Of a DNA stretch of 64,000 nt, positions 3,377 through 63,762 are shown piece after piece. The position numbers and the translations under genes were made by a program. The notes beneath the pieces were generated by a model that worked only from the letters and a program-made list of their open reading frames with translations, was not told the origin of the DNA and ran no database searches. How positions within the stretch are numbered: the first letter of the stretch is position 1; each line of letters begins with the position of its first letter. The stretch covers positions 1 to 64,000 of the forward strand of contig WFMF01000108.1 of the NCBI GenBank assembly GCA_011033025.1. Reading direction: 5' to 3'. Source of the stretch: Beroe forskalii (Eukaryota; Ctenophora; Nuda; Beroida; Beroidae).

Positions 3377-3444
3377 CCCACAGATCCGCTAGCGTGCCGT
3401 CGTTGGAGAAACCAGACGTCTACCAGGACACCCTAGAACTAGCA
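3377..3444 (+). CDS. PKC, probable linker exon between regulatory and kinase halves
   Basis: A pyrimidine-rich acceptor (CTCTTTCTCAG) precedes 68 nt that are open in one frame and end at the donor GCAG|GTAAAC. The translation reads roughly AHRSASVPSLEKPDVYQD and ends ...LELA plus one base. That one-base overhang joins exactly to the kinase exon at 9990, which starts with two bases, to make an Asp codon. The peptide has no fold signature, as expected for the variable hinge before a PKC kinase domain. The donor and exon end are triplicated just downstream. Support is splice phase plus position, not homology. Confidence 0.5.
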
Positions 3445-3568
3445 GGTAAACAAACATAGCATCTTCCAAATATTCTAGAAATAGCAGGTAAACAAACATT
3501 GCATTGTCCAAATATTCAAATGTTCTAGAATTGGCAGGTAAACAAACATTGCATTGTTCAAATATCTT
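3433..3568 (+). repeat. Three tandem copies of an exon end plus splice donor
   Basis: Units beginning CTAGAA(C/A/T)T(A/G)GCAGGTAAAC start at 3433, 3474 and 3525. Each contains the exon's last bases and a GTAAAC donor, followed by CAAACATTGCATTGTCCAAA-like sequence. The first unit holds the predicted exon end of the PKC linker exon. Confidence 0.8.
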
Positions 3569-4032
3569 CAATATAATTGGTACTCGAATTTCTGGACCAT
3601 AAAAAAGTTAATGTTCGAGAGGAGTGGCACTTACACTTTGAATAGTATTTAGTTTCATCAATACTACCCGCAATACTGCAAACTTGTAAAATCTAGAATG
3701 AATGACTGATGTTTAATTCCACTCAATGCGGAAGCTTTCCTAACAATTGATGACGGTTTTTGACGTATTGTAAATGTTAAACTCAATGTTAAATTGATAA
3801 CGGTATTTTCTCCTCTAGTTATTTGGTAAGGGGTTTCAAGGCTTCATTTACCATAATTTATGAACAACAGGAAATCGTTCTACGATTCCAATAATTGAAT
3901 AACAGGTAAAAGGGCAGATTAGAATATCGGAACATTTTCACGTGAAAACGATCTTGATTGAAATGGAGTGAAGCGGTAGCCGGTACAGAAGTACGGGGTC
4001 ATCATTCATGAATTGTCAGCTGTAAACCATAC

Positions 4033-4337
4033 AGTGACACAGTTCTATCTTTCATGAAATGAGAAGCTATGACAATAGCTCTTGTAACATAGCCGTGACA
4101 CAGTTCCATCTGTCATGAAATGAGGGGCTATGACAATAGCTCTTGTAACATAGCCGTGACACAGTTCTATCTGTCATGAAATGATGAGCTATGACAATAG
4201 CTCTTGTAACATAACCGTGACACAGTTCCATCTGTCATGAAATGAGGAGCTATGACAATAGCTCTTGTAACATAGCCGTAACACAGTTCTATCTGTCATG
4301 AAACAGGAGCTATGACAATAGCTCTTGTAACATAGCG
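4033..4337. repeat. 61-bp tandem repeat, 5 copies
   Basis: Five units start with GTGACACAGTTC(T/C)ATCT and end with CTCTTGTAACATAGCC. Each unit contains the hairpin-forming GAGCTATGACAATAGCTC. Copies are nearly identical apart from single-base changes and a small deletion in the last one. Confidence 0.9.
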
Positions 4338-6489
4338 ATGTTGTTTGGGGCAAACACTCGCCAGCAATACACGGTTGCTGGTGACAGTATTATCAGGGTT
4401 TGTAATGGTGAATTGATGACGTCACACCGCTTTGCTATCTTGCGCGAGATGTAAATATGTACATTCAAATTGCCCTTTCTCGCTATTGTGTCATTGTAGT
4501 GTTTTGCGGGCTAACAATGGCCCTGGATACACAGCATATATTATGTTTGTATGAGTATACTAGAGTACATGTAAAGGAGTCATTTAGTGGGTCTAATAAG
4601 CGAAAAGGTGCAGACCGTGTAAAACCCCTTTCTTTCAAACCTCTCGCATATGATGTATTGAGGCATTAGAATGTGACTCTAACCCATTTGATGGTGGACT
4701 TTTTAAGATGCAGAAGAAGTAGGACGAATCCATGTGCGAAACCTCATCCTATACATTTATTCTTTTAAAGTTTTTGATTTTCCCCAAATTTTAGGCTACG
4801 TTTCTTTATTTTTTCAAAATCCTAGCCTCAGTTTCTTGAAAATTACCCTGAGTGTACATTTCCTTGGCTCCATTACTACGGGGCTCCATCATCCATGTGC
4901 AGATGTGCTTCTCGAGTGAAAATAAGAGCGATCGGAGTCATCAACTTACTTCGTTGTGCTATGATAATGATGTCATGTCAACCACCAATGCATATCACAC
5001 ATGGTGACAAGAAAGACTGTATTTTGCATAATATATACTAATGCAGAATGTATATATCCCCTGATTATAATATACATTTTATGTACATGTCATAATAATA
5101 TGTGAATGTGGTTTTATCACAATTCAGCATGGTCTACTGCTGTCTGGGACTTATTGAATTTGAGATCATAAATCATTACTCAAACTCAGCTTTCTGATGG
5201 TATTATTTTCCTTTATTCTATGCTTTTTAACATCCAACTGCATCAGAATACGACGTTTAAAATTGAAAGCGTTATTGTTTGTACAAATTGAGCTACAAAG
5301 CAGCAATAAAGCATATTGTAATCACTGCAATTATTTATCATCCACAAAGCATGAATCCAATGCTGTTTACGTCATTATAAGACTATCGACCCGCTCGTAA
5401 ACCGCGGCTTGAGTTTGCTTTAAGCGCAAATATAATTAGTTGCTACGAGTCAAGGAATGCTTCTTCCAAATTCCAGTTATTATCATTCCGGGTCCGGAAT
5501 CGACAAAAATTACTCAATTTTGGAGTTAATTTCCACCAATATACAGAACATAATATAGGATCAGACACAGTAAAATTTTTCGTGATGGATCTAAATTGGC
5601 ACCTCAAAAAATCTGTTTTCCATTAGGGTGCAATTGTTTTCAAATCAGGAGCAGTATTGTGAGTATTGTACTAGATCCTGTGATGACGTCAGGCATTTAA
5701 ATGTCTTTGTTCTCGTTGAAGAGACGCACCGTGTTCACATTGCCAAGGGACAGACACAAACATTTTATCATTTACAGCATTTTATAACATTCTATAACAC
5801 ACAAACACACAGCCATCGAAAATTGTGTGATAATAGCCAATATTAAGATAACAATTGATACTTTCACATTTTCCTAGCTGTGCATGCGCCTCGACTGCGT
5901 ATCGGAAACTCTTTACACAGCTCTAGAAGTGGGAAGGTATTTATTATTGATACTTTGACGGTATGCTTCAGCGACTAGCAGAATAGCAGATGTTTGATCT
6001 TTGAAAGACAAAAAGTGAATAATACTTAATGTTGGTTGGGATGACATAATCATGGTTCAGAATGGTTGATTGATGACGTCTTTATCATGAATAGAATAGT
6101 GAGTTGATGACGTCATTATCATGATGAAGACTAGCTAATTGATGACGTTTGCCATTATCTATTTCATGTATTGTTCGTACCATACGAACAATACATTCTC
6201 ATCTACATGTCAGTTATTGTGTGTTTTTTGTTGTGGTGACAACATGGAATAAAATCAGTGTGGTTGACGTCATGGTGACGTCATGGTAACGGGACTACTC
6301 ACGAGTGTGACATAATGTTTACAGTGTGTAATACACAGTTATACATTCAGATACAAGGTATAATACACACACGCTGTGATGACGTCATTATCATAGCTCA
6401 AAGTGGTGAGTTGATGACGTCATTATCACAGCTCTATGTGGTAAGTTGAGCCGCCTATTTTTCACGCACGGAGGACTTATGATGGGCAC

Positions 6490-6640
6490 AATGTAGCATG
6501 ATGTAATAAACAGTGTACACACATACATCATACACACTAACATGATGTAATAAACAGTGTACACACATACATTATACACACTAACATGATGTAATAAACA
6601 GTGTACACACTAACATTATACACACTAACATGATGTAATG
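6490..6640. repeat. 51-bp tandem repeat, about 3 copies
   Basis: The unit contains CATGATGTAATAAACAGTGT followed by ACACACATACAT and ATACACACTAA. Three copies are visible, the last one shortened. Confidence 0.85.
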
Positions 6641-9349
6641 TACTCTGTGTACTTATTGGATTAGTGGACACAGAACACATTGCTGAACTATTGAATATCA
6701 TCATTATCATCAATGGGAATTATCAAGGAGCGCATTACGTAACTAATAACAATACAAACAATACGACTCTATTAAATCACGTTCAATGACGTTTTTACTT
6801 CCGTTTTCTGATCACTGTTAACTCCAAGTAGAGAAGTAGACAGCTAGGTATTATTCTACGTATGTATAGGACTAAAAGCTTTAAAAGTCAGGACAATACC
6901 ATTTCAAACATGATACACACATGCTATGTAATGACAAACACGATTTACATTATACAATATACATCGCAATGTACTCATAACAGGATCAGATCCACAATGA
7001 TGGTACAACCATCCTGAACACATAAAGTACGGAGAAAATGTTTTCTGAGCTTCTTTGGATTTAACTATTTAGGCACACTTTCAGAAATACAAATTCCCCC
7101 TTCTACGAAAAGAAATGATCTTTCCACAGTACCTACCTATATCATTGTAGTGAGATATTGTTTGACTGATTGCCACAATTCACTCGCCATGGAATAGTTT
7201 ATAAGTTTATATAGATCTTTGATCCACGGATCTAACTATGGAATCAGACCATCAGTCCTCAATGTCATCAATTTCGTTGATGCTTCCTTCAATCATTTTA
7301 TCCTCAAATTACAAAGCAATTTGCTACCAAATACCTTGGATCAAATAGCAATTACTTAATTCCAAGAAAATGTTGGCCTCACGATTTCTATGATGTATTA
7401 TTATGCTTAGATCGATTGCAATCAATGTTTACAATGCCTAATACACCGCAATGTGCAATACATTCCAAAGTATAAACATTGTAAATTCCTCTTTAACAAC
7501 TTAACAAGGTCCAGATCACCAGTAACAATTACATGTAAACTGGTTACTGGGTTTCATTGACATGGGGTTTCTACTTTCTAAACATGTGAGGGTTGTATAC
7601 TAACATTCCAATGCTTTGTATACCAGTAGTGTGGGCCTTGATAGTAGAGTTGATAGTAGAGTTGCCAAGAAAATCAAGAATTTGAAGAGCAGTTAATCAT
7701 AATATTCATTAGCTGGGTTTTAAATCAATCATTAATTAGGCGGGACCCTATTGTTCAATTTCTATTGCATTGATGCATGGCGCCTTAACTGATTACAATA
7801 TATTGGAACTATATATCCTTTTCTTAATAGTTCATATCACAGATCATGCCTCAGTGAAAATTATAATACAAAAAGTTCTATAATCTACAGTCAGAAAGCT
7901 GTCTGCGCTGCGTATACAATTTAATGTACATAAAATGTATTGCTATACAATGTACATTCTCATACTATTTAATGTACATACAATGCATTACAATACTCTA
8001 CATTCTCAATATCAGCTGACGATGATTTGCTGCTGTCTCACTAATGGTTTTGCAAGCAATAAGGAAGTGTCAACACGAAAAAGCTGCTGCAATAATATAT
8101 TATCATCACGAATCATCCTGTGTATGTTAATATATTATACCCAGACAACAAATAGAACATCATAATCTACAACCGCTATGATTTTGACAGAAATAATGTG
8201 CGATAGGGTGTATTCATTAATCTTCTGGTGTAATAGATTGAATGGGGAATTGCCCGATTTTAAAATGAAGGAAAATAAATCGGGAAAATCACTTTTAGAA
8301 ACTATTCAAAATATGAACCAATATTAAAGCTAGGTTTAGTTTTACTGGTTTAGGAGTTTAGGAAGCAAATGGTTGTGGGGCTTAAGTCCTGTGTCTTCTT
8401 ATTTGGGATTCGAGGTATTGCCCCAGCAGGAAAAGGGGAATGACTCATTGATTGTTTTATTTTATCGGTTAAAGGAAGTAGTCATCTGATTCTTTGATAG
8501 CCAGCGTCCATGCTATTTTCAAATCCCACAAATAGCACGATTTAATCATGGCATTTTATTTATATTCCTTGACGCAAACGTACCTACTAAAGAAAGAAAA
8601 AGTAAAACATTATACTATTATAGATTTCAGTCAAAGAAATTTTGCTAAAATGACTGTACTATAAATAAATTTGTTCGCCCGAATATTGAGTTGTAGTAAC
8701 GTATAATCAAAGCAATTTATTAATCTAAAAATACTGAAATAATGCGTGTCTGCAAATCTAGATTTTCTTGCGGACATGGTTCCTCAAAGAAAGCTGATGT
8801 AGGACTTATTGCTTTATAGTTAAGATTTTCATCACGTATTCTTCGCTGAGTTAGATGTGAGAAAGTACATGCCTTCATCGGCTTTGGGGATGATCTTTTC
8901 TACACAAAAGCATGTTTTGTTGGAAAATTGTGTTAAGTTATTTACACTCATTGTACAAACACAAATAAATGATACTGAACAGTAAAAGTCTAAAATTTTT
9001 GCTGCGAGGAGATGTTCATGAAAAGGATTTATTGACTTGAATTTAGATATTACTGAGGTCAATATTATTATATTATTATGAGGTGCTATTACCCCCTCTC
9101 TTGTTAAAGAGAGACCTCCTTATAAACTTTATATGTGATGTGGTACCTTAGTAATTTAATTAACTTAATTAGCCCTGGTCAATAATGTTTGCAAACAGCT
9201 TGGTAACTGCTCGCCATGATATAATAACTGGTCATTAATTACAGATCATTATATTGTGTGCTGTTATATAATAATCACACTTTAACTTGGATGTTTTAAC
9301 TCAATGAAGAGTAATTTAGTACCCAGTTCTGTTAGCCAGGATTTTTTCC

Positions 9350-9640
9350 GGGAGTTCTTGGGCAGCCCCCCAGTGCAGGGGCGAGCCCCTGCCAGGGTTC
9401 TTTAAATTTTAGGAAATTAGGGTGCTGCAGGATGATTTTTACAACAAAGAAATGTACAGGAAATGAACAGGATGATATTAATTGTTAAAATTAGGCCAAG
9501 TTATCAAATATAAACGAGCTACAACTGAAGACTAAACAATTGGAGCTAAAATAAAAAATCATGAAAAACTTTTATTCTAACTATTTTGAAATGGTACCTT
9601 TTCTTCCGAGGGGGCTGCAGCCCCTAGCTAACTCCCAGCT
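9350..9640. mobile_element. Dispersed repeat, copy A
   Basis: This stretch shares GAAATGGTACCTTTTCTTCC, GGGGGCTGCAGCCCC, an interior TATAAACGAGCTA segment and a GCAGGGGCGAGCCCCTG-like end with 60690-61140, in the opposite orientation. It has no coding capacity. It is probably an old non-autonomous transposon or a fragment of one. Confidence 0.6.
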
Positions 9641-9989
9641 ATGTTCTTACGAATGAACTAATGAAACGCCATAAATCTTTGAATGAAACACATCGTTTTA
9701 TTGTAAAATACTTTCGAACCATCATCAGTTCATCATTCTTTATTTGAGGTTCCTATCCTCAAAGGTGATTTACCCTCTGCCAAAATACACAGTAAGTTTC
9801 AGCCTAAAGTCCAACTAAAACTAACTTCCATGTTGAAATAAATGAATAATTGTATTTATGAAACTTAATCAAAAACTTCACTTAGCCTGATTAATAACGA
9901 TCTTGTGACTTGCATCAATTTACAAAAGAACACGGAACTTTATTAGTTAAGGAAAACGCCCTGTTTAACTCATCCTATTTCCATTTCAG

Positions 9990-13166
<3,177 letters not shown>

Positions 13167-20548: not shown

Positions 20549-20660
20549 GTTTGCTCGAGGAATAAACTACCTTCTTTAATAACCGGCCCAAACTACTGCC
20601 TAACTTGTCTATTGTCTAATACATGACACCAGGCTTCTATGACCCTTTCCCTTCGTATAT

Positions 20661-21144
20661 CAGGTAGTATACTAGCTGGTATTCGCTAACCCTTTCCCTT
20701 GTACCAGGTGGTATACCAGGTGGTATTTGCTAACCCTTTCCCTTGTACCAGGTGGTATACCAGGTGGTATTTGCTAACCCTTTCCCTTGTACCAGGTGAG
20801 TTACCAGGTGGTACAACCCTTTCCTTGTACCAGGTGGTATACCAGGTGGCTCTGGACCCTTTCCTGTACCAGGAACACCAGGTGGTATTTGCTACACCCC
20901 CCCAAGATAGGTGGTACCTCACATTATTCTCAACCCTTTCCTTGTACCAGGTGGTATACCAGGTGGTATTTGCTAACCCTTTCCCTTGTACCAGGTGGTA
21001 TACCAGGTGGTATTTGCTAACCCTTTCCCTTGTACCAGGTGGTATACCAGGTGGTATTTGCTAACCCCTTCCCTTGTACCAGGTGGTATTTGCTAACCCC
21101 TTCCCTTGTGTAACCAGGTGGTATACCAGCTGGTATTCGCCAAC
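20661..21144 (+). repeat. 44-bp tandem array carrying the STAG exon 9 acceptor, about 10 copies
   Basis: Each unit has TTTCCCTTGTACCAG (polypyrimidine tract plus acceptor) followed by GTGGTATACCAGGTGGTATT, a near copy of the first bases of exon 9 (GTGGTATACCAGCTGGTATT at 21118). The array ends at the real exon. The first, most divergent copy (20661) keeps the CTGGTATTC spelling of the exon. Several units are shortened or have insertions. Confidence 0.9.
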
Positions 21145-48441: not shown

Positions 48442-48492
48442 GTATTATTATGTGTATTAGTTAGATAGGTATTAAATTATGTGTATTAGTTA
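48430..48492 (+). repeat. Duplicated donor region, P4HA exon 6
   Basis: AGATAGGTATTATTATGTGT, then ATTAGTT, is followed by AGATAGGTATTAAATTATGT, then GTATTAGTT. The first AGATAG|GTATT is the exon 6 end and donor; the second copy lies about 28 bases into the intron. A third partial copy is ATCATTATGTGTGTAT. Confidence 0.8.
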
Positions 48493-50207
48493 TCATTATG
48501 TGTGTATATGTATTATTAGGTTTCTAAGATTATTGGTCAAGAAGATATTCCGAATTAGAGCTTAGTATAAAGGTTACAGACGATTTGCACTTGCTATTTG
48601 AAAACTACGGTCAGGCAATCAACCTCGCGTCAATTAAGTGTATTACTAGCAGGCCCGCTAGGCCTGCAAAACACAACTCACTCGGCGACGTACAAAATAA
48701 AGATATTACAGAAAATGGTAAATTATATTAGAGATATACATTATACATAGCACATATATCTGGACAGGTGTACACGGGGTTATTAATAGTGGGTTAAAAT
48801 TTTGTTATATTATCCCAAAGTATCTTAATTCAAGAACGGGATTTATTCGGCGAGTTTGGCTAGCTTAACAAAAATGTGTTATGGGGGTTTTAGGCTGGAT
48901 AGGGGAGATAAGGAGTTTATGTGAAGTATTGTGATATGTATTAGTATATTCAACCATACGTTTTTAGAAGAATTGATATCCTGTACGTTCGTTCACTGTT
49001 CAGCGCCTTCAGTTTTATATCATAGCTGTTTAAAACCCAACTGAATCCCTACTATAACCCTCTCCCTATCTACCCAGTGAATGCACCATTCCTCTCTGTG
49101 TTATAGATTGTTATAATTAGAAGAGACTGTAACCTTCTAAATACATCTTCAAAAAGCGTTTTTATAGTTTCATAGGTGTGTGCTACCTAATGGAATACTA
49201 GCAATCGAAAACAGGAACGGGCAATCACTCCCCTATGATAGTTTTTCTAATAAAATATACGGAATGGATTGCATTTATCATGAATGTTATTAATAAACGT
49301 GCTAGGTAAGTTGGCTGAGGAATCCAACAAATATATTCATTCGAGTTTCCCTTACAGTGTTGAGTGTGTTGAATATGATAATATAATATATATCAGTCGC
49401 GTTCATTTATATATAATATTCTAATATTTGACGACATAACCCAAGCCATGTGATATTCGCAACATGGTTTTTACAGTAGTTATGTCAATGCATACTCCGA
49501 TCAAAATATTGTCGTCGCTGCAGTTTCTGTTTGACAGTTGCTTTACGAAAAATATGAAATTGGGCATTGGAATGAAATTTGGGCATTTTGCAAAAAAAAT
49601 GCCCTCCAGAATTATTGTCCCCCATAAATATGTCTCGCAAGGTACTTTAATTATTTTCTGAGAAAAATAATTCCTCGAATTCAAGGTAGACAATTTTACA
49701 AGTTCAATTGCCCTTTGTTGTTAATTTATTATGTCAAAATTATGTGATCAATTATATAAGACGATCTAACAGCTGATGTTGTTAACTTGCTATCATGATG
49801 TCACCAAACTGTTACATTGACGCAATTCGTTACTTAATCCCGGATGCGGGTCGTTTTCCTATAATATACTGTAGAGTGTAGTTATGTATGATGAATACAT
49901 CCATACTGTTATCAAACACTGCGTGAATTTGATCTTGAAGTAATGGTTCGAATTGTTATTTCCGGTGGTCGTGATAATTTATTTAGTATTTCCTCTTCAC
50001 TCATGCCCATAACTGAATTCATGGATCGTTTCGTTGGATAAAAGTCGCATGAGTGCCTTTGCTCGCCAACGCTTCGGTAAGTTTTATCCAGACGTTATTG
50101 GATTCTCTGATGCAGATCTGAATCTCCACTCTTTTTCGTGTTGCAGTATGAGGTTTTGGAGAATTGGCGTGCTATAATATAAGTACGTTATATAAAACAT
50201 TTCATAA

Positions 50208-50375
50208 GGGATCGTTCACATATTACGTAATCACCTAGAGGGGGGGAGGGGGTTTCCGAATGATTACGTTACATGTTATTGTAACAAATACAACTACTGT
50301 AAACTTGATTACGAGGGGGAGGGGGGGGGAGTTGAAATCGGCCAAAAATTGATTACATAATATGTGAACGATCCC
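50208..50375. mobile_element. MITE, 168 bp, best copy of its family
   Basis: The terminal inverted repeats are GGGATCGTTCACATATTACG, then TAATCA, and their inverse TGATTACATAATATGTGAAC, then GATCCC, with one mismatch visible. Related copies are at 37492 and (weak) 17895. Confidence 0.85.
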
Positions 50376-50376
50376 T

Positions 50377-51060
50377 AATGAAGGGTTTAGTAACGAGTAA
50401 AAGTTGCAAAACGTGTTATATCGCATTTAGAACCGAGGCCGAAGGCCGAGGTTTTTATTGCAGAGTTTTGCACTTTTTACGAGTTATTAAACTGAATTAT
50501 GCACCGTAATTACTAGAAAAATAGGGAATAATTTCAAACACAAGGAAATGTTTTAATTCATGATATGAAGCTACAACTGGGTCGACTGTGCGAAATAAAT
50601 TATTACGCACACCATAATCATTTATTATGACCTACAGTGCGCAATAAATCCTGATTTTGGCACTTCAGTGCGTAATAATTTATTGCGCACGGTACCCTGG
50701 TGCCTATAGGGTTTTTGAATACATAGCAGAAACATGCCTGGAAGGTGCATAATACGCACTGTAGGTCATAATAATTTATTATGGTGCAGTAGAACAGTGC
50801 GTAACAATTTATTTCACACAGTTGGGCAAACAGTACCTTCAAATCTTGATTTAAAACATTTCCTTGTGTTTGAAAATATTGTCATTTTTCGAGTAATTAC
50901 GGTGCATAATTCAGTTTAATAACTCGTAAAATTACTAAACTCAATAAAAACCTCGGCCTTCGGCCTCGGTTTTTCAATGCCATATTACACACTCGGGCCT
51001 ACGGCCCTCGTGTGTAATATTACGTTTAGTAACTTTTACTCGTTACTAAACCCTTCATTA
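50377..51060. mobile_element. Large inverted-repeat element next to the MITE
   Basis: The left end TAATGAAGGGTTTAGTAACG and right end CGTTACTAAACCCTTCATTA are exact inverses. The arms (about 50377-50560 and 50870-51060) both contain a CGAGGCCGAAGGCCGAGG box and ATTAAACTGAATTATGCACC, then GTAATTAC. The centre holds TGCG(C/T)AATAATTTATTGCGCA-type palindromes. Confidence 0.85.
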
Positions 51061-51370
51061 TATAACGATCGTTATATAATTCTTGCTCCGATAATTTTTG
51101 TTATATAACGGCTTCAAAAATGGAGTTTAGGGGTCAATTAATCATTTTCATAAGATTTTAAAATTTTCGAAATTTTGGGGTGTGATAATTTTTCCAGGTG
51201 TGTGATAACTGTACAGTTATCACACCCCTCAAAGAAAAGTTATCACACCTTTGAAAAATTATCACACCCCAAAGATCAAAACTTTAGAATTTTGTTATTC
51301 GTATTTATTTACTATGTACAATCAATAATCATTTCAGTCTGCCTTTCAGTCAATTCTCTCACTCCATTAT

Positions 51371-51920
51371 GTTATCTTGTTTATGCATTCACCGTTCACG
51401 TTAGTCATTATATGAGCCGCGCACGCACGTGTCAGTAAAGCAGTAAGACGACTTGATCTAAATCAATACACCAGTGTATACATAATATTATGTTATCTTG
51501 TTTTGGTTTCATGAGTTTATGTATACTTGTTTGTCATTATATGAGCCGCGCACCCACGTGCCAGTAAGACCACTTGCTCTCAATCCATTATGATACACCA
51601 GTGCATACATGCTTTGTTATCTTGTTTTGGTTTCATGAGTTTATGTATAACTTGTTTGTCATTATATGAGCCGCGCACCCACGTGCCAGTAAGACCACTT
51701 GCTCTCACTCCATTGTGATACATCAGTGTATACATAGTATGTTATCTTGTTTTGGTTTCATGAGTTTATGTATACTTGTTGGTCATCATATGAGCCGCGC
51801 ACCCACGTGCCAGTAAGACCACTTGCTCTCACTCCATTAGGATACATCAGTGTAGCAGTGTATAAATTTATTTTGTTATCTTGTTTTGGTTTTATGAGTT
51901 TATGTATACCCGGTAGTCGA
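51371..51920. repeat. Satellite of about 120 bp, 5 copies
   Basis: Copies start with GTTATCTTGTTTTGGTTTCA at about 51371, 51491, 51616, 51740 and 51885. They share TTATATGAGCCGCGCACCCA, then CGTGCCAGTAAGACCACTTG. The first and last copies are the most divergent. Confidence 0.85.
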
Positions 51921-52149
51921 TATATCAACCGTGTACCTACTTACCCTGACAACAATTTTCCTATAAATGTGCATCCGTTACGGCGTTGCACACTTACACG
52001 GAAATGATCTTTCAATTTTGTTTTGTTTGCCCTATACTCTTTAGCTCAAAGGATTTTTATATTTAAAAGCTTCTAAATTTGTTTTTTATTGGAAAAACCA
52101 GTGTAGATCTCCGCCCGTTTCTCACGTTATATAATGGATTAATCAAACA

Positions 52150-52985
52150 CCCTAAGGATACGTTTATATCAATTATCACACTCGCCTTCGGCTCGAGTGA
52201 TAATTGGAATATACACTCGCCTTCGGCTCGAGCAATAATTCGAATTATCACACCGCTTCGCTCGTGTGATAATTCATATAAACATATCTAAAGATGTTCG
52301 ATTATCTATATATGCAACTTCTAAAGAGGTTTACGCAGTGCTCCTTTATACCCATTATGCACGCTAAAACAGTTCCACTTTTTAAAAAGTGTAACTACAG
52401 TGCCAAAAAAGTGGAACTACAGTTGATAATAAAACCATTTTGGCATTGTTCCCCAGTGTTCTTCAAAACGTGATCTTACTCTATAGCATGGAGAGGTGTT
52501 AAAAATGAACACTGGGGTGACAGACCGCAGATTTCACACTGAAGGATACAGTTGCTGCTCTTATTACAATAGCTCAAATACTAAACAAGCCAATAACACT
52601 ACATATTCTATTATTCTCATATTCTTGCTTGAATTATACATAATTACGAAATATATGCCTAAATGTATTGTCGTTGCATAATTCGGTTTGTAACTCGCAA
52701 AACTGCAAACCTTCCATTAAAACCTCGGCCTTCGGCCTCGGTCTTAATGTGTTATTATGCCCTCGCGCTTCGCGCTCGGTGCATAATATCGCGGTTTGCA
52801 ATTTTTGCTAGTTACAAAACCTCTCAATATAGAACTATAGGTCGAAGGAGTAACCTAATACCACATATATGTAGTGAGCGCGAAGCGCGAACTATATAGA
52901 CATTATTGGCCGAAGCGAAGCTGAGGCCAATAATAATTTGTTTGGACGAGGCGAAGCCGAGTTCAAAATAACTCCTAGGTACTCT
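52150..52985. repeat. Cluster of CTTCGG-type hairpin boxes
   Basis: Short self-complementary boxes with TTCG or GAAG cores include ACTCGCCTTCGGCTCGAGT (twice, 52178 and 52215), ACACCGCTTCGCTCGTGT (52250), CCTCGGCCTTCGGCCTCGG (52724), CGCGCTTCGCGCTCG (52765), GAGCGCGAAGCGCGAAC (52877), TTGGCCGAAGCGAAGC (52908) and GAGGCGAAGCCGAG (52948). They lie between AT-rich inverted segments such as ATTATCACAC and GTGTGATAAT. Confidence 0.7.
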
Positions 52986-53361
52986 GGACTTCCTATATTT
53001 GGCGATTACATGGCGAAATTACATAAATTGTGATGGAAACTCATAAGAAATATGAAACATGACGTCTCATAGTTGTACTTGTATCAGGCGTCATGGTAAG
53101 AATACTCTCTCCGGTAATTGCATTTTTGTCGGGCCTCAAGACATACTTGTAGACATATGTCGATGGAATGCATATTGTGATGCCATGTAGCAATTTACCA
53201 CAGTGAAGCAAGATAACGGCGTCATTTGAACAGCCTGTTGATCATTGGAGTCTCAAATACCACAAAATTCGAATATATATCTGCGTTCCAACCAAATTAT
53301 TCAAATTGAATTGGCACTTGAGGCGGCAGGTATCGTTACTCGTGTAATGGTCACCAAACAA

Positions 53362-53600
53362 ATGTAGACAACTCACGTCATAAACTTTCTTATTGAATCT
53401 ACGACGATGTCATCATTGAAAATACCCTATCAACTCTTGGAAAATCCTATAACATGGGGTTATAGGATCCGAACGACTCTAAAAAGATATGTAGGCGACT
53501 CACGTCATAAACTTTCATATTGAATCTACGTCAGGTCATCACTGTAAACACAGCTTATAGGGTCGGAAACGACCACATAACATGGGGTTATTCCGATGTA
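53362..53600. repeat. 127-bp tandem duplication
   Basis: ATGTAG(A/G)C(A/G)ACTCACGTC, then ATAAACTTTC(T/A)TATTGAAT, occurs at 53362 and 53489. Both copies also contain AACATGGGGTTAT. Confidence 0.75.
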
Positions 53601-54505
53601 TATGGTGGCGATGTATATGGTGGTAAGGGCTTATGAGCCATGTAATATAATATAAGTACGTAATGGCAGAAACGTGTTTTCATATGATCGATGAATTGAT
53701 AACGTGTCCGATGATTTGCAGTGGGCAGAGTTTCAAAATGTGGGGATGAGCGTCCACTGCCCAAACTCAGCTTTTCAAGGAGTTAAGTTGGTTTTAACCA
53801 GAAAGCCTCGTGACTTGATACTTTGATAAGTCTGTAGATCAAACTGTTATAAAGCTGTTATATATGAGTATATATCCACTCGCGTGCGCTTTTTGAAGAC
53901 ATTTTAGGTAGCGGGCGCGCATAGCCCGGTAAAATATCTGCACGCTAAATTTGATATTCCCACCCACTTTCACTTTATTTAGGGCCCGTTTTTTATTACT
54001 CAATTATTGCTCTGGTGCCTAAATACGTCCAAAAGTTAATAATCGCTGCATCATGTATGTTTGTTCTTGATGAAAAAATACAGTCATAAAAAAGATTTCA
54101 TATGATAAAAATCTGACTATCCCATTAATATGATAAAACTCTGACTATCCCATTACCGACTACTTTATTTTAATCTAAAAAGCACAGTACAGAGTAGTGG
54201 CACTCCGAGTAGTGGCACTCTGGAGGCCCGCCTGATTGTTTGATACGTCAATTACTTCAACACAGGGTTGTTTGCAACACCAGCTCCAAGATTTTCTATT
54301 TAATCTTCGGTAGTATGTTATTATATACCGTAGGCACGTTAATTAAATGTAAAATGTTGTTCGTGAATCATGAGACGTGATTCCACGCAGCTCAAGCATC
54401 TAATACTCTAATATGACTAAAGATTTATCTAACCATCTTATTTGCTTTAGAATGTCTTTCAAAGACTCAGTGACGAACTAGTGACAGTCGTAGACTTCTC
54501 TCGTC

Positions 54506-56572
54506 GTGATGATATCCGACCTTCTTCTCGTCATGCTTATCACGCTCGTGACAGCAGAATCAAAAGAATGTATTGAAAGAGACACCATCTGCACGGCAGG
54601 TTGTTATAGATCGAATGAGACATGCAAAAGGTGTTCTAGTCATGTAGGTGAGTACTCGAATGATGGTGCAACTGAGTGCATACCATGTGGGCTCGGAGAG
54701 AAGTACTGTCTTTGTGATACAACCCCACCAAATAATTATTGGTATCAAGATGAAACTTTGGCTTCATACACGTGTGTTAAGGATAACTGCGATAAAAATT
54801 GCATCAAGGCTGCCAAACAATCTCTTAACATTCGAACGAATGGAAATGAAGGTAAACTTTTTTATGAATTGTTTGATTTTCAATTCATTCCATGTGATTG
54901 TAATGTGAGTGGAGGATCATGCGATGTACAAAAAGTAAACAACATGTGTTTTTTGAACGATTGTCACCGACCACTCAATGGAACTGTTAGTAAAGAGATT
55001 TTAGAAAGCTGTCTGAAAGAATACGAAAGCACCAATGAATGCAGTTTGACTTGCTATTATAACCTCACGGAAATTTATAACCTCACGGATCTCGCACTGT
55101 GCCATTGCTTTGACGAATCTCCAGATGACTGTACCAAGTATGAAGACCTCTTTAAGAAATGTCTAAAGACCTCTTTAAGAAATAATAAATTATTAACCAT
55201 TGCATTGGTTCTTTTCGTTGTGCTGCTTGTGGTAGTCAGTTACTTCTTTGTCAAGTGGTATACTATTACATATGGCAGAAAACTGAAACGAGACGGGAGG
55301 CTATCGCAGATCCTGCCCTTTATTGATTGGTCAACAGTAGAACTGATCGGGACTGCACCTAAATACTATGATCAGTTCTTCTATGCCAATCGAGAAATCC
55401 TTGTGAAGATCAAGTTTTCAAAGCTAATGAAGTTCCCATTGGCATTTCGCCTATTTCCTACTCAACATGTCGTCGTGAAGATATTCTCCAACACCCGGGC
55501 TGAAGCTCAAACGAAGGAAATGTCTATTTTTAGGGCTATTAAGGACAATGCAGCCGCTAAGACCTGTAACATCATCAGTGTATACGATGGTGGAACAGAA
55601 AACTCATGCGACGGTGTCACTGACTTTGTCCATGGTCTCAAAAAGCACTCTCCCAGATTTTCTAACATGACAGATGTTATCTCGCGTTATTATGACGAAA
55701 GAAGCACTGGCATAATCATGAACCATTGTAATGCATTATCGCTCAATTCTTACATCAAGAAAGAGTTCCCTAGCGGCCGACTTCAACCGGAGGAAGTCAT
55801 CAAATTGTGCTGTGACCTGGCAAGTGCTATAAACTTTCTACACAAGAACAATCCCGCCATCATTCATTGCGACATCAAGCCTCAAAACATATTTGTCAAG
55901 CTGGGCATGAACAAAAAAACTCGATTCATACTTGGAGACTTTGGGTTTGCTGAAAAGCACTTGGAAGGTCAGCCATGGCGCATGCGGGGTGGCACCGCGG
56001 CATTCATACCGCCTGAATATATGATCACGCAAGATGGTGCGGCATCTGAGGATGGTTTTAGTGACGAGATGAAGAAAGCTATTCGTAATAGAGAAGAAAT
56101 GCCTACTACAATCGACGTGTACCAGTTCGGTCTCATCGTCTGGCTAGTCCTGCATGGCGAGCTGGACCCATGGCCAGAAAGAATACACCCGGAAGCTACC
56201 GCCACGCCTAATAAAGACTATCAGAACGCTAGAAGACGGCACATGTCGGAAAAGTGGTTGAAAGACTTCGGGTATAGACCGAAATTCGCTTCCAATCCCC
56301 CTCCGCATATGATTCGAGAAGTATATGTAATATTGAAAGAGATTGCGGAACAATCGTGGCATGTGGATCTTTTGAAAAGGCCCTCCTCTGCAGCTATTCA
56401 AAATCGTCTCGAAGACTGTCGTAGTCAACGTCTCGTATCTCGTTCGCCGTGGTGCATGCGGTACAGAGCTGAAAGTTCTCCTACAGCTGAAAGTTCTCCT
56501 ACTGCTAAGAACTCTCCTACAGCTGTAGCCCCATTAAACCCGAACCACGTGGTGGATTTCAGTGCTTGTTGA
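54506..56572 (+). CDS. Transmembrane receptor-like protein kinase, intronless, nested in P4HA intron 6
   Basis: The 688-residue single-exon protein starts with a signal peptide (MMISDLLLVMLITLVTA). The Cys-rich ectodomain (residues about 20-228) has tandem Cys pairs and N-glycosylation sites. One membrane helix (LLTIALVLFVVLLVVVSYFF, about 229-249) is followed by a kinase domain. Kinase landmarks are a probable beta-3 lysine K325 (VVVKIF), the catalytic loop HCDIKPQN with D456, the DFG aspartate D478 (GDFGFAEK), and TAAFIPPEY in place of APE. The Lys after the catalytic Asp indicates Ser/Thr specificity. The usual glycine-rich loop is not visible (IGTAPKYYDQ). The tail has three SSPTA-type repeats. 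AATAAA lies at 56594. The ligand and pathway are unknown, and I cannot assign a family. Confidence 0.85.
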   Translation: MMISDLLLVMLITLVTAESKECIERDTICTAGCYRSNETCKRCSSHVGEYSNDGATECIPCGLGEKYCLCDTTPPNNYWYQDETLASYTCVKDNCDKNCIKAAKQSLNIRTNGNEGKLFYELFDFQFIPCDCNVSGGSCDVQKVNNMCFLNDCHRPLNGTVSKEILESCLKEYESTNECSLTCYYNLTEIYNLTDLALCHCFDESPDDCTKYEDLFKKCLKTSLRNNKLLTIALVLFVVLLVVVSYFFVKWYTITYGRKLKRDGRLSQILPFIDWSTVELIGTAPKYYDQFFYANREILVKIKFSKLMKFPLAFRLFPTQHVVVKIFSNTRAEAQTKEMSIFRAIKDNAAAKTCNIISVYDGGTENSCDGVTDFVHGLKKHSPRFSNMTDVISRYYDERSTGIIMNHCNALSLNSYIKKEFPSGRLQPEEVIKLCCDLASAINFLHKNNPAIIHCDIKPQNIFVKLGMNKKTRFILGDFGFAEKHLEGQPWRMRGGTAAFIPPEYMITQDGAASEDGFSDEMKKAIRNREEMPTTIDVYQFGLIVWLVLHGELDPWPERIHPEATATPNKDYQNARRRHMSEKWLKDFGYRPKFASNPPPHMIREVYVILKEIAEQSWHVDLLKRPSSAAIQNRLEDCRSQRLVSRSPWCMRYRAESSPTAESSPTAKNSPTAVAPLNPNHVVDFSAC

Positions 56573-56832
56573 TGTTGCAGTGCTGCCCCATTTAATAAAT
56601 CTTGTTATATAATCTTATATTGTTGCCTTGTTACAGTATAATTTGTGACTATTATATATAGAAATGCTAGTGATGAGCATTGTGAATGGACTTCATGACA
56701 ACTGTGATGAAATGAAATGAAGAATTCTTGAATCGTGACGTCACTCTTTTTTGGTCATGCTCCAAAATTTTTGAAATTATTAGGAGCGGTTTATTATTAA
56801 GGTTAATTTTAAGCGGTTACATGTCGAAGTGG

Positions 56833-56936
56833 TGACCGTATACCGCAACTTACATGGTCGAGGCGACAGCCGAGACTGTGTAAGTTGGATAATGGACGAG
56901 GCGTGCCGAGTTCATTATCGTAGGTATACGGTCACA
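56833..56936. mobile_element. Small inverted-repeat element
   Basis: GTGACCGTATACC and GGTATACGGTCAC bracket about 100 bases holding CGAGGCGACAGCCGAG and CGAGGCGTGCCGAG boxes. A related GACCGTATAACC...ACACGGTCG segment occurs near 57117. Confidence 0.6.
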
Positions 56937-57810
56937 GCTGAGATCATGGAACCGGATTATACCCCGACCGGAAACAGCTGGGACTGACTATTTTACGGCC
57001 AAACAACAGTATTTCTTCCCACTCGGGTCTGACGACCCTCGCTTAAGTAGACTTTAGAGTGCTCCTTTATAAAATCAAATTTCATTTTTAGCTTTTTTGC
57101 ACTATTATTCAGTGAAGACCGTATAACCAAACTTACACGGTCGCTGAAACAAGCTTGGGAGGGGTATAATACTTGTTAATTTAGTTTTTTCAATTTTCAT
57201 ACAAACATGGAAATATGCATGATTTTATGACAGCAAATGCATATTTTTATGGGTATTTTGAAATTCTTTTACTGTATCGGTAAAGAGAGAATGAAGGGAA
57301 ATGAGTGAAGTCGTGAACAATGAACTGCAGTATTTTTCTTATATTATGAAGTTATTAATAGTTATTGAGCAATTTTATCTGTCCTGTTTTCATATGTTAT
57401 TATATTGGAGGAGGAGCGGTCTGTGGACTGCTACCTCTCACTGGTATTCTACCATCAATATACCTTATTGGCCCTTATTAAACCGGTCCTTATTAAGGAC
57501 GAAAACGACTTGGAGATTCTGTCCAAAGGGCCGGTTAAAAAAGGCTTGTTAAAGTGGGGCCGATTAATTAATTAAAGACCAGTTAATTTAGGCTAAATGA
57601 AACTTTATTACTTGGCTTATGTAATCCATTTCACCGTCATGAAAATAGATTGAGAAAAATTTCTTGGTTTGGCAACTTCTTGAAATATTTTCGTCCACGG
57701 AGCTGGTTAAAATGGTACAAAAAAGATTCTACTTTTTGGACAATAAAAAAGGACCGGTTAACAAAAGGTGGGGCCCTTATTAATAAAGACTTACATATAT
57801 ATGCGTGCAG

Positions 57811-57938
57811 ACCGCTCGATTGACAGAGGCCTCCATAAAGACGTGCGGATTTCTTCTGAGCACCTAACCTTTCTACATGAATTCCGTCAAAAGCACACAA
57901 TTTCGCGTGTCTTTATCGAGGCCTTTTTCAATCGAGCA
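57811..57938. mobile_element. MITE, about 128 bp
   Basis: The ends GCTCGATTGACAGAGGCCTC, then CATAAAGACGTGCG, and CGCGTGTCTTTATCGAGGCC, then TTTTTCAATCGAGC, are inverted copies over about 34 bases. It is related to the element at 13501-13630. Confidence 0.75.
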
Positions 57939-58629
57939 CACATATGGGTTATAAGGTTGGTGTCTTTTTTCAGGACGAACAAAGTATGAGTTAGAAATTT
58001 CGTTGTGAAATAACAAGCAGCAATCACATAACTAACATTTCAATCTGTTCAACGCACCATCTTGTGTGAACGTATTGAAGTGTTACTTTGTTAAATTGCT
58101 GTTTGATATTTCACTATGTAATTTCTTACATCTTACTTTGTCATCTTATTTGTTTTGAAATGCTATTCATCTTAGGAGGTGTATTTATAAAGGTTGTAAT
58201 TTGGGGATTTTTCAGAAAAATCCCCATTTTTTCACCAACCATGACAGTTCAAAATGACGTCATTATCATATGTTAACAAGAGTAATGACTTGAAAAATCC
58301 CCCATATTTACACTTACCAAAATTTGAAACACCGAAATTTTTTATTTATCCCACATAAATACACGTATACACCTCGTAAGGTATTGAATATTCCCCACAC
58401 TGTAAAAGTTCCACCATATTGTGCGGATGTGATTTTTCACGAATTGACGATAGCTTACTCAATTCATGGTACTTATTTTCACGATTTCAAAATGCTTACT
58501 TCTCGTTAAAGCATATAGAAATCTTGAGATCACGATAGAATTTCCGCAATTTGAAATTCATTTCAGAATTCGTGAAAAATAGAACGACGCGGAAATCAAT
58601 ACATTTACAGGATTAATAAGGAATCTATT

Positions 58630-59428
58630 GATGTGATCCCCTTCCCGGTATAGTTTGTCACTTTCGGTTAGTTCAGCATCAGAGTCGAAATAGGAAACGG
58701 GGTTAAAAGGGGTTTAAATAAATAGGGTATCTATTTACAATAAATTATCTCTTCAAATCGTGATTGGAAAGTACAATGCTTAGAAAGCTCGTAAAGTCTA
58801 AAAGTGTAAATCAGAACACGGAATCATCGTATTTTATAATATGACACTTAATTTGATTCTCTTCGAGTAATTTAGATAAGAGTTCATTTGCGACGCCTCA
58901 GTGAATGTTAAACATCTTATCAGCCTCCTTGTCGGGTATGAGATCAGGTGATTTGTTCGTGCAGAGTAGCTGAGCACCGTGACTAACTCCGACATTCCTG
59001 TATCCTAATTAGCAGCACGTCGAGTGGACCCTGGAAGTTGGGTTGGAGTGTGACGTAACAGACGACAAGCTCTCATACTCAACACGGAGCTCAGCTACCC
59101 TGCACGGCCGAATCACCTGATCTCATTCTCGTCAGGGAGGCTGATAAGATGTTAAACATTCACTGAGGCGTTGCAAACGGACTCTTATCTAAATTACCCG
59201 TTGAGAATCAAATTAAGTGTACTTTTATAAAACACGTTGATTCCGTGTTCTGATTCAGACTTTTAAGAATTCAGATTTTTACAGATTATATTCTCTGAAG
59301 ACTTTACATATCACATTGTAAATAAAGACCCTATTTATTTCACCCCGTTTATAACCCTGTTTCCTGTCTCGACTCTGATGCTGAATTGACCAAAAGTAAC
59401 AAACTATACCGGGGAGAGGGATTACATC
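58630..59428. mobile_element. Foldback element, about 800 bp, arms about 360 bp
   Basis: The left arm opens GATGTGATCCCCTTCCCGGT and the right arm closes with ACCGGGGAGAGGGATTACATC. Matching inner blocks include ATCTTATCAGCCTCCTTG against AGGGAGGCTGATAAGAT, and GAACACGGAATCA against TGATTCCGTGTTC. The arms are clearly homologous but diverged and leave a short centre near 59000-59070. No coding capacity is visible. Confidence 0.85.
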
Positions 59429-60689
59429 AAGTGGAATCCCGATCCAGAATCTCAATATCTGAGTTACAACACTATATGAAATGATTTATTCTTCGATGAT
59501 TGATCTGTATTTTTTTTGAAAGGGCCGTGGTATGTAAGAGTTATCAAAAAGATTGGATTGTATGATTCTTATTGGTTTATCATCTTATATCGTGTTGGCT
59601 TTTATTCAGCCTTGTTGGGTGGAAATATAGTCTCCGTTTAGGTACTTAATAAGTTAAAATCGTGATCTCTGTGAGAGAAAAAACGTTTTGCATCATTGAA
59701 GCCTGGAATTTGGAATAATCTTCATTTACAATTTATAAATTATAACTTACAGTTAAATTTAGATGTTAAAAATTTAATCATCTTGTCTTTATCCATCCAT
59801 CGTTCTAAAATTACCGATGTTTTAATATCATAATTATAAAGTGAGCTGCCATTCAACATTTCAGCATAAATATTAGTACGTTCGGAAGAGATTGTCACTT
59901 GCAATTTTCTGGAGAAACGGCTGCCGGGACTGACTTTTTGATGTTATTCTTTTTTTTTCAGACATTTTTGGATTGAGATAATCGGGTTTTACCGATAACT
60001 AAGTTTTCTAAACCCATTGACTTGGAAGTCTAGGAAGCGAGCTCAGATTTTTTGTTTATTCAAACTTTTGAAGGTGCTTTAATGATTTTAATTCAGTTAT
60101 TTGAATAAAATGCCGATATGGGGCTGTGAAGCACAGTGGAAGTATATAGTCTCAGCTGTTCAGTGAGACAAGCGAATTATACCCCGACCGATGATAAATT
60201 GATAAATTATACCTTCTCAATTTCTCATTTTGAGAGCCGATAACTCTGAAACGAAGTCGATTTCGAGGCAGCTGAACAGCTCGCAAACCGAACTGTTCCT
60301 TCATAAAATCAGATCATTTCTTATTTATAACGGGGACGTGTCGAAAACTTACGTGCGCGGCTTTTTCATGTGCGGCGTAGTCGTTGGAGGCTCACTGCCT
60401 GTCATTAATTCATTCAAACAGCCAGTGAACCGCGCAAGATCACGCCGCGCTTGGAAAAGCTGCGCACATCGGAGTTCGACACGCCACCGTATTAGCTATT
60501 TTGAACTGTTAGTTGTGGATGGCCTTATACAGTTATAACTTATAGAGCCTGGAAGGGGTATAATTCCACTTATTATTAGGCAATACGTCTTATAACTTGA
60601 TTAGTACTTTATGAATAGAAGTTTCTGCCACCACAAATCTTGCTAAAACATAATATGAATATAAAATATAAAATATGCAATCAGGCTCG

Positions 60690-61140
60690 TAGACAGAGGG
60701 GGGGCTGCAGCCCCCCTCGGAAGAAAAGGTACCATTTCAAAAAAATAGTTAAAATAAAAGTTTTTTGACTGATAATCATAATTATATACTTTGGCTAGGT
60801 TAAATAGTGGCAGTTTACTAGTTTAATCCTATTAAATATGATTAAACTAGCTATAACAGTCTGAATAACTATAAGTTATTCTGACAGTTTTAGCTCGTTT
60901 ATATTTGATGGTTTACTTTTTCGATGCTCTAATTTTGACAAATATCGTCCTGTACATTTCTTTATTTGCTGATTTCTTTATTGTAAAATCATCCGAGCAC
61001 CTAATTTCCCTAAAATTTTTCGGCTCCGCCCCCTGACCCCTGGCAGAAAATGATAGTCGATCCTGAATAGACTTTTGCCCCCAAACCCCTGCCGCAGATT
61101 GCTCGCTTCGCTCGCGGCGCAGGGCCCCTCCAAAAAAAAA
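60690..61140. mobile_element. Dispersed repeat, copy B (inverted relative to 9350-9640)
   Basis: It starts GGGGGCTGCAGCCCCCCTCGG, then AAGAAAAGGTACCATTTC, and continues through TAGCTCGTTTATATTTGATG to a GCCCCCTGACCCCTGGCAG segment. It ends with a CTCGCTTCGCTCG box and GCAGGGCCCC. It is longer than copy A and has no transposase frame. Confidence 0.6.
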
Positions 61141-61512
61141 TCAATATACAACCTGCATGCAATATTGAACTCTAGATCTGCGAAACTTATGCAAAAATAG
61201 GCGGTTTGATCAGTTTGAAGCCTTTCGTTCAATGTTCCCCGTTTTAAATTCTTACTACTTTTTCACTTTTTTCACTGCGATGAAAATTCACTTTAATTAA
61301 GTTAAAACTTTAAAACCGCCTGTTTTTGCGAGCGAATTGTTTCATAGTATAAATCACCTTTGTCTATTTGTATCTTTATCTGCTGATTTGTTTTGAAAAT
61401 CATTCGACGTCTTTCATTTGGCTATCATTTGAAAATGAAAAAAATGATTCGTATCGAATAGACTTTTGTATAAAAGTATACAATAGATTTACTAAATTCG
61501 GCGTTCCAAATT

Positions 61513-62100
61513 TTACATTATACTTTTTTCCTTCCGATTTTTAACCTTGATAAGAAGGTTATTGGATTTTTCCCTCCAAGATATTTATTGGACCATTGTA
61601 ATAAATATATCAATTTATCTTGATCTATCACCCAGGTGCCTTGATCTATCACCCAGGTGACCTGATCTATTACATTATACTTTTTTCCTTCCGATTTTTA
61701 ACCTTGATAAGAAGGTTATTGGATTTTTCCCTTCAAGATATTTATTGGACACGTGTAATAAATATATCAATTTATCTTGATCTATCACCCAGGTGCCTTG
61801 ATCTATCACCCAGGTGACCTGATCTATCACCCAGGTGACTTGATTTATCACCCAGGTGACTTGATCTATCGCCCAGGTGCCTTGATCTATCACCCAGGTG
61901 ACCTGATCTATCACCCAGGTGACTTTATCTATCACCCAGGTGACTTGATCTATCACCCAGGTGACTTGATCTATCACCCAGGTGACTTGATCTATCACCC
62001 AGGTGACTTGATCTATCACCCAGGTGACTTGATCTATCACCCAGGTGACTTGATCTATCACCCAGGTGACTTGATCTATCACCCAGGTGACTTGGCGCAT
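61513..62100 (+). repeat. 157-bp duplication plus 21-bp in-frame array carrying the P4HA exon 7 acceptor
   Basis: A 157-bp segment starting TTACATTATACTTTTTTCC occurs at 61513 and again at 61670. Each copy ends in the unit GATCTATCACCCAG, GTGACTT (21 bp). After the second copy there are 15 acceptors CACCCAG (one GCCCAG)|GTG from 61793 to the true exon start at 62087. All are in one open frame that reads GDLIYHP per unit. Confidence 0.93.
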
Positions 62101-63762
62101 GCTGTAGAAGTCACGGAGGAGATGTTACTCCATTACCCAGACGAGGAACGCCTGTCCAGTAACCTCAAATATTACATCCGCAAGTGGAACGAAGGTGGAC
62201 TGAAAGATATCGGTAACTAACTTTACTAACCACTTTACTTACTTTTTAAACGTAGCTTGAACCTTTATTGTACTTTACTTACTGACATGGCTGAACAGTC
62301 TGGGTTGTGTTGAGAACAAATTAAAGCACTTTTGTGCTGTAGTTTGTAGACAAAAAAACTGATAAGAATACCTAGACGAATGAAGAGTGAAACATTAGAA
62401 TTTTTATTTACTTCACAAGATCACTTGGCAACATCACGTTATAGTTGGCATCGTTCATGTATTACAGTTATCATTTTCTACTTCTGATAGGTTAGAGAAG
62501 GTCAATAACTTATTGCGGCTTATTTAACAATACGATTATAATGTTTATGACAGAAAGTTTTTATGATGGAATTTGAAAAAGAGAAAACTATTCATGATAC
62601 TGATAAGTTAATAACTCGCAGATGCAGACAGCATTATATCGGAACCTCTTGTTGATATAGTATCCGACATAGACCTGGAAGAAGATATTGAGATTACTTT
62701 CGTTCCTAAACTTTATCCAGGTTTACTATTTTGCAAGATTGTAATTTTGCCAGATTCAGAATTTTGCCAGGATCATTTTGCCAGATTCAAAACAAGAGCG
62801 ATATCAGTTGATCGAAAAATATCAGCCAATTACTACTCTCAAGCCATGGACATTGTACAGCTATAATACTCACTTCCCATTATAGTAGTCACTTTTTGAC
62901 AGGTTCTGACGAGACTGTCCTGAGTGAGGATCTGATAGAAAATGAAATACAAGATGTTATGTACAAGAACTGGACTCAAAGGTGATGCATACTCATGCGC
63001 CTGCGATTGATGATTCGCAGTTGTCAGTTACAATCTCGCGTCACATCATTCAAGCTTTCTATACTGTTCAACTAATAATCTTAATTCCATTAACTCATCA
63101 AAAAATAATTAATTAATATCTGATCAATTTCATTAGTATATTCTGAATGAGTTTGCTAACTCTCTTTTGCCAAAATTTAAGAGAACTACCCGGATACAAG
63201 TTGCTCTCATTGAATTACAGAGTTACCACTCTACTAAAAGACTGAACAGTTCCTCGCTATTTTCTTGATGGGCTTATATCATTACGTTTCACTCTATTAG
63301 TATCAAACATTACCCAGCACCCATTGACCATAGGCTATTGACCACAGATTTGTTGAATTGCTTGATAAGAAACACACGTCTTGCTTGATATATGCGCTGT
63401 TGTGATGACGTCATTATCATTGCGAAAAATAGTATTCTTCATTGTCCATTTCAGGCTTACAGGATGAAGAAGCCCCCATTTTACTCACCATTATTTAGTT
63501 TAGTCACTATTTTAATCGCCATTTCACTCACCTTTACAGCCCCACTTCACTCACTACTACTCACCATAGCTTTACTCATCCTTACTTAACTCTTTTACTC
63601 ACCAATTAACCAATTCACACTCGCAGGATGAAGAAGTACAGGAAGCTGTGCAGGGAGGAGGCACCCCTGACCCCCAAAATGAAGGGTCAGGTGGACAAGT
63701 TGGTGTGTTACTACAAGCAGGACACCCCCCGTAGCTTACTGCAGCCCATCAAGGTCGAGGAG
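62087..63762 (+). CDS. P4HA: Prolyl 4-hydroxylase alpha subunit, exons 7-10 (gene continues beyond window)
   Basis: Exons: 62087-62212, 62622-62720, 62903-62981 and 63627-63762; phases fit throughout. Exon 7 (GDLAHAVEVTEEMLLHYPD, then LSSNLKYYI) completes the TPR-like substrate-binding domain. Exons 8-9 encode an acidic linker (DLEEDIEIT, VLSEDLIENEI). Exon 10 (YRKLCREEAPLTPK, VCYYKQDTP) matches the Cys-containing segment (CRGEG...CRYHD in vertebrates) before the catalytic domain. The 2-oxoglutarate/iron dioxygenase domain with its HxD...H motif is not in the window. The intron before exon 7 is 13.6 kb and contains the receptor-like kinase gene. Confidence 0.92.
63461..63640 (+). repeat. Duplicated acceptor and exon start, P4HA exon 10
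   Basis: ACAG|GATGAAGAAG occurs at 63467-63480 in the intron, and GCAG|GATGAAGAAG again at the real exon start 63627. The stretch between is a degenerate series of ACTCACC-type repeats. Confidence 0.75.

Follow-up and report, generated by a model that had tools for sequence, protein, structure and literature searches.

Tandem repeats built on splice junctions are present in eight genes of the ctenophore Beroe forskalii. We describe them in a 64,000-nucleotide stretch of contig WFMF01000108.1 (C88:1-64000, hereafter the window; assembly GCA_011033025.1, 216 Mb in 1134 contigs) and in genes elsewhere in the same assembly. The repeat unit of these arrays takes in a splice site together with some of the adjoining exon edge. 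The arrays are probably splice-junction minisatellites of the kind known from lancelets as mirages. On this reading, random local duplications that take in a junction would persist because the copy on the exon side is the one spliced, and the extra copies would leave with the intron. Our small, hand-curated sample makes it likely, but not settled, that they are enriched about 3-4 fold at junctions.

Exon-boundary arrays in the window

All sites listed in a first-pass annotation of the window fall in three plus-strand genes: a PKC-like kinase gene, the cohesin subunit SA (STAG) gene, and the prolyl-4-hydroxylase alpha (P4HA) gene. Their human protein matches are PKC beta, SA-1, and P4HA1, respectively. 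The STAG model is identical at 264 of 272 ungapped positions to a relative's protein (P0018), whose EukProt label we take to resemble a Pleurobrachia bachei model.

At 8 of the 68 internal junctions in these genes, a repeated segment takes in the splice site and the edge of the exon; the eight comprise seven arrays reported by Tandem Repeats Finder (TRF) and the two-copy duplication at 37240 (sites are labeled by window position; Table 1). The positions of the exon boundaries are backed by homology or coding signal. Both boundary types are hit. The repeat crosses the exon boundary at four donors (3445, 22396, 24397, and 48442), as seen from TRF or the sequence, and at four acceptors (21118, 31326, 37240, and 62087). 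The annotation had counted about twelve of some 38 junctions; the arrays are real, but the count needed correction, since the 34 modeled introns have 68 internal junctions.

Three other sites proposed as junction units are weak or different in kind. The repeat at 21952 comprises intron up to AG/GT with few exon bp, and splice scoring gave no similar copy there. At 30514, BLAST shows that a copy at 30481-30504 derives from the interior of exon 15 (30558-30581). At 63627, we find only a shared 13-mer, 164 bp apart, and BLAST at E 0.01 reported no duplication.

Junctions in the window are crossed far more often than random placement predicts. When whole arrays are placed at random, 7 of 18 TRF arrays (unit at least 20 bp) cross a junction against 0.93 expected; when the founding unit is placed, 7 of 17 cross against 0.63-0.73 expected. 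The window was selected for the pattern, so these figures overstate the effect, and an independent gene set is the test that counts.

Junction arrays elsewhere in the genome

The independent sample comprises 80 kb from blindly numbered contigs (8 stretches), 80 kb at or beside kinase-gene matches, and the next 10 kb of the window contig. Its 13 gene segments contain 56 introns and 111 junctions, and arrays of unit 20-90 bp were counted in them. An automatic gene finder alone was dropped because exons inside arrays escaped it; the exon set then rested on hand curation and homology. The counts exclude predicted exons of low score, as well as an SNM1-like exon (C35) and a PUS7-like gene (C436).

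Junction arrays recur in this set. Six of 22 arrays cross a junction against 1.53 expected (P 0.003), in a test that counts one uncertain PKA-like exon donor (C891); in a second run the expectation was 1.39 (P 0.001). The crossing arrays lie at the acceptor of an FAK kinase exon, in two copies (C25); at the acceptor of a UBE2Q-like last exon, with about 20 copies containing the exon's first bases; at the acceptor of a TMEM-like exon; at a MAPK-like donor, with about 23 copies of 25 bp; and at the exon 11 donor of P4HA, in the window gene's continuation. Without the duplicated FAK copy, 5 of 21 arrays cross (P 0.011), and without both this copy and the P4HA continuation, 4 of 18 do so (P 0.038).

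Two earlier nulls give no significant excess. With whole arrays placed, 5 of 14 arrays cross against 3.24 expected (P 0.17), and without the MAPK donor, 5 of 24 cross against 3.30 expected (P 0.19). Hand curation, the 90-bp unit limit, and the inclusion of the MAPK donor, whose next exon is unknown, were chosen post hoc, so these nulls are to be weighed alongside the later tests. In a nearly automatic exon set (one exon added by hand) with 104 junctions, 4 of 70 arrays cross one, a bare count. The claim that tandem repeats land on splice sites more often than chance finds support at about 3-4 fold elsewhere in the genome, with P ranging from 0.001 to 0.2 depending on null and exclusions.

Other measures bear on the same question. 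An annotation-free test counts 13 of 51 units with a splice-like site, where random segments give 8.4 (P 0.045). For arrays that come within 60 bp of a junction without crossing it, the other genes have 6 where 3.05 are expected, and the window has 1 where 1.6 are expected. At 5 of 68 window junctions and 2 of 94 others, in a list outside which the FAK acceptor and MAPK donor stand, the exon-terminal 16-mer (2 mismatches allowed) reappears within its own intron; swapping introns gives 0.2 (donor) and 0.0 (acceptor) of 81 (mean of 5 swaps). GC content was rejected as the cause, as the intron adjoining exons has a GC fraction of 0.397 vs 0.379 deeper in the other genes and of 0.344 vs 0.371 in the window. 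The crossing units in the other genes are GC-richer (0.523 vs 0.426).

An additional donor array, on C306 (42 copies of 30 bp), lies next to an exon with a MAM-domain match of 25.4 bits, just below the 26.4 cut-off. This array was found through its resemblance to another array and is outside the chance counts. The MAPK-like exon bearing the donor array also has a second array (L011 6833-7112) that stops exactly at its acceptor; the copies end in CCTCAG or similar, without exon sequence.

Splice-site choice, turnover, and rival explanations

Unit anatomy varies widely among the arrays. Unit lengths are 21-66 bp, and exon sequence makes up about 0.2 to 0.9 of the unit, without a favored value (13 hand-entered units, Kolmogorov-Smirnov P 0.56; the PKC unit was entered as 46, where TRF gives 42 and 50). 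Five of the 13 lengths are divisible by 3, which leaves selection for frame unsupported. The spread of junction positions and this share of multiples of 3 fit random duplicated segments that are not kept in the mRNA. Among the eight window units, the 66-bp (24397) and 21-bp (62087) units are open in the exon's frame; the 33-bp array (31326) has three stops in it.

Relatives' proteins have single-copy peptides at most checkable junctions. They span the junction with a single exon-edge peptide at STAG exons 9, 14, 16, and 17, and they are also without an inserted repeat at P4HA exons 6/7 and 11/12 and at FAK; the check covers junctions other than those of PKC exon 1 and STAG exon 12. From this continuity, the exon-side copy appears to be the one used.

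Many extra copies carry a splice signal as good as that of the used site. Scoring relied on a matrix trained on the window's 34 introns and was possible at 10 of the 15 junctions entered; the other five gave no score or had no similar copy, two of them owing to a one-base boundary offset. At 6 of the 10, half or more of the similar extra copies reach the score of the used site. In the UBE2Q-like array this holds for 18 of 20 copies, while at STAG exons 12 and 16 and in FAK most copies score below the used site.

Copy number differs between two copies of one exon. C25 contains a 2.7-kb tandem duplication, 89% identical, both parts of which have the same FAK exon; the acceptor array has 2.7 units in one duplicate and about 22 in the other. 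This indicates that arrays expand or contract within a pre-existing intron. A search of the assembly found no second haplotype for four stretches with exon sequence.

The arrays are largely specific to their loci. In an assembly search that skips simple repeats and very common words, three of four arrays match their own locus only. The fourth (31326) has 71-75% resemblance on C306 and C292, and its C306 match (71%) is a different donor array. Introners are single intron sequences common to many loci of a genome; the arrays resemble them in being repeated intron sequences within one genome, but differ in this locus specificity. Within the limits of that search, neither a dispersed repeat family nor an introner family is supported, and the annotation's view of a process rather than a repeat family is borne out.

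We propose that a short local tandem duplication would by chance take in a splice site and some of the exon edge. Splicing would stay with the copy touching the exon, so that the extra copies would fall within the intron at little cost, and the array could then expand and contract as other minisatellites do. We infer which copy is spliced, the neutrality of the others, and the mechanism of growth. The excess at junctions over the intron interior suggests either a higher birth rate or longer survival, with selection on the exon-side copy anchoring the array.

Several points weigh against splice-junction minisatellites of this kind. The choice of spliced copy is read from protein continuity, not RNA. 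A strict neutral model predicts zero junction excess, yet several tests show one. High-scoring extra copies are common at 6 of the 10 scorable junctions, and copies of the 66- and 21-bp units, being open in the exon's frame, could be translated. Across STAG exons 12/13, the model is one residue shorter than the human protein, and exon 13 changes frame.

Splice junctions might instead be mutational hotspots for tandem duplication, for example through co-transcriptional RNA-DNA structures. This idea is plausible, and we place it clearly below an even chance. It would account for the crossing excess in the window (7 of 17 vs 0.63) and in the other genes (6 of 22 vs 1.39), for the lesser enrichment of nearby non-crossing arrays, and for an excess that the small GC differences are insufficient to explain. 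However, the junction can lie anywhere within the unit, which implies no fixed cut site; two nulls give no significant excess, the annotation-free test is weak, and longer survival accounts for the same excess.

The annotation had also suggested that duplication of AG/GT segments is creating introns here. In the Rogers model, introns are gained by tandem AGGT duplication, and both intron ends come from the same duplicated unit; if this were at work, the two ends should resemble each other. The duplicated segments here do include a splice-like site, but 1 of 81 introns has ends that match over at least 10 bp (0.07 expected, P 0.07). The sole case is the STAG intron 18685-18914, where the annotation had noted the same 11-mer at both ends; the match is present and is 10 bp long, preceding donor and acceptor. 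Matches of at least 7 bp (2 of 81 vs 1.35 expected) are as common as in shuffled pairs. Three other introns would suit intron gain. The intron at 22396 is largely an array of exon sequence. On C891, the two ends of a PKA-like intron carry TTCAGTGAGGCTCA, a 14-bp repeat (L019 4047-4060 and 4847-4860); this intron has no GT at the expected donor and was excluded from the 81-intron test. The P4HA intron at L018 914-1219 contains copies of both flanking exon edges, but as two different repeats. With 80 of 81 introns lacking a 10-bp end match and the FAK pair showing growth in an existing intron, intron creation is improbable and finds no support as a general process.

It is just as improbable that the repeats are functional alternative splice sites varying protein length. 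The two in-frame, open units and the many copies with a well-scoring site would suit such a role, yet 8 of 13 unit lengths are not divisible by 3, the 33-bp array carries stops in the exon's frame, and relatives' proteins lack inserts where checked. We consider an assembly artefact from noisy long reads the least credible explanation, and very improbable. The frame change in STAG exon 13, a disordered-looking stretch at 23354-23560, and the exon-9 interior fragment inside the 21118 array are what such an artefact might leave. But an assembler is blind to splice sites, and the units fall at the borders of exons in eight genes, spread over five contigs (C88, C25, C35, C305, and C306); the copies also differ among themselves. 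Exact copy numbers in the assembly may nevertheless be wrong.

Splice-junction minisatellites may reach well beyond these genes, a broader claim that we rate close to, but short of, an even call. It holds that several percent of ctenophore splice junctions are minisatellites genome-wide, born or kept several-fold more often than in the intron interior, and that the spliceosome reliably picks out the exon-touching copy from a field of near-identical sites that can run to dozens, many of them equal to it in score. If true, nature would here have run a set of experiments in which the position of a splice site, rather than its strength, governs the choice.

Known systems and neighboring features

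Mirages in lancelets are tandem duplications of exon-intron boundaries. Excerpted reports describe them in Adh3 and the globin genes BflGb6 and BflGb9 (PMC3087553) and in PGBD5 and troponin C (PMC3902484). Their units are 10-72 and 150-160 bp, normal mRNA was reported, length and somatic instability occur, and they were proposed as a route to new introns (PMC3087553, as excerpted). The Beroe arrays share the tested defining features of mirages: they are minisatellite-type duplications with boundary-spanning units, they lie on the donor or acceptor side, and their units of 21-66 bp fall within the 10-160 bp given for mirages. On the allelic or somatic length instability of lancelet mirages, the observations here are that the FAK duplicates differ (2.7 vs about 22 units) and that the four stretches searched showed no second haplotype. 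In place of the normal mRNA reported for lancelets, we have protein continuity.

The kind of array is thus known from lancelets. New here are another phylum, eight genes, up to about 42 copies (6 and 3 in the excerpted globin case), and an estimate of chance. In the UBC tandem array with dual-specific splice sites, repeat units likewise contain AG/GT, but those units are 228-nt coding monomers (PMC10809524, as excerpted), whereas the arrays here are short, intronic, and beside one boundary. Among the matches listed from the open-licence PMC literature, no title reports ctenophore boundary arrays. The genome paper on the ctenophore Hormiphora puts tandem repeats at 13% of that genome and, in its excerpted parts, makes no mention of junction arrays (PMC8527503).

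Junction arrays are apparently widespread in this ctenophore. This carries a lancelet curiosity of few genes into a distant phylum of animals, where, the data suggest, such arrays are common. If they are common, they would supply many natural constructs for how the right splice site is picked among identical neighbors. They are also a warning for gene predictors, as a simple predictor called array copies as micro-exons.

Table 1. Genes, junction arrays, and related repeats in the window.
Feature	Position	Strand	Description
PKC-like gene	3377..13166	+	8 exons modeled; earlier exons outside model
PKC-like donor array 3445	3433..3565	+	about 3 copies, unit 42-50 bp, 13 exon bp; exon ends 3445
STAG gene	17770..39123	+	19 exons
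STAG intron 18685-18914	18675..18914	+	identical 10 bp at 18675 and 18905
STAG exon 9 acceptor array 21118	20642..21144	+	about 10 copies of 44 bp; unit is pyrimidine tract, AG, and about 27 exon bp
Short repeat at STAG exon 11 acceptor 21952	21893..21960	+	almost wholly intronic
STAG exon 12 donor array 22396	22356..23353	+	24 copies of 43 bp, nearly all exon sequence; exon ends 22395; disordered stretch beyond, to about 23560
STAG exon 14 donor array 24397	24378..24748	+	5.6 copies of 66 bp (19 exon and 47 intron bp); exon ends 24396
STAG exon 15 acceptor region 30514	30481..30513	+	24-bp exon-interior copy, non-junction unit
STAG exon 16 acceptor array 31326	30824..31345	+	15.8 copies of 33 bp, about 20 exon bp
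STAG exon 17 acceptor duplication 37240	37212..37264	+	two copies; 24 bp identical, 29 bp shift (BLAST)
P4HA gene	41450..63762	+	exons 1-10; continues in L018
P4HA exon 6 donor duplication 48442	48436..48492	+	2 copies of 29 bp, 6 exon bp; exon ends 48441
P4HA exon 7 acceptor array 62087	61776..62094	+	15 copies of 21 bp, 8 exon bp

Three STAG exons have further features. A fragment of the exon 9 interior lies within that exon's acceptor array at 20893-20933, with 18 bp exact at 20916-20933. Exon 13 (23567-23680) changes frame mid-exon, through either a single-base error in the assembly or a genuine defect. A decayed-looking copy of exon 15 can be seen by eye at 30210-30310, about 300 bp upstream of the exon, and is unreported by BLAST.

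Introns of STAG and P4HA also house nested genes, which the excerpted genome paper describes as common in Hormiphora (PMC8527503). One STAG intron contains a seven-transmembrane receptor with LDL-receptor repeats (32960-36814). Within P4HA introns lie an antisense choloylglycine-hydrolase-like gene (43597-44730), whose best organism-named matches are Mnemiopsis leidyi proteins, and a single-exon kinase-domain gene (54494-56572). In the continuation of P4HA, the same exon occurs twice in tandem (L018 6936-7136 and 7175-7360), about 40 bp apart and coding in both copies; this pair is possibly one of mutually exclusive exons.

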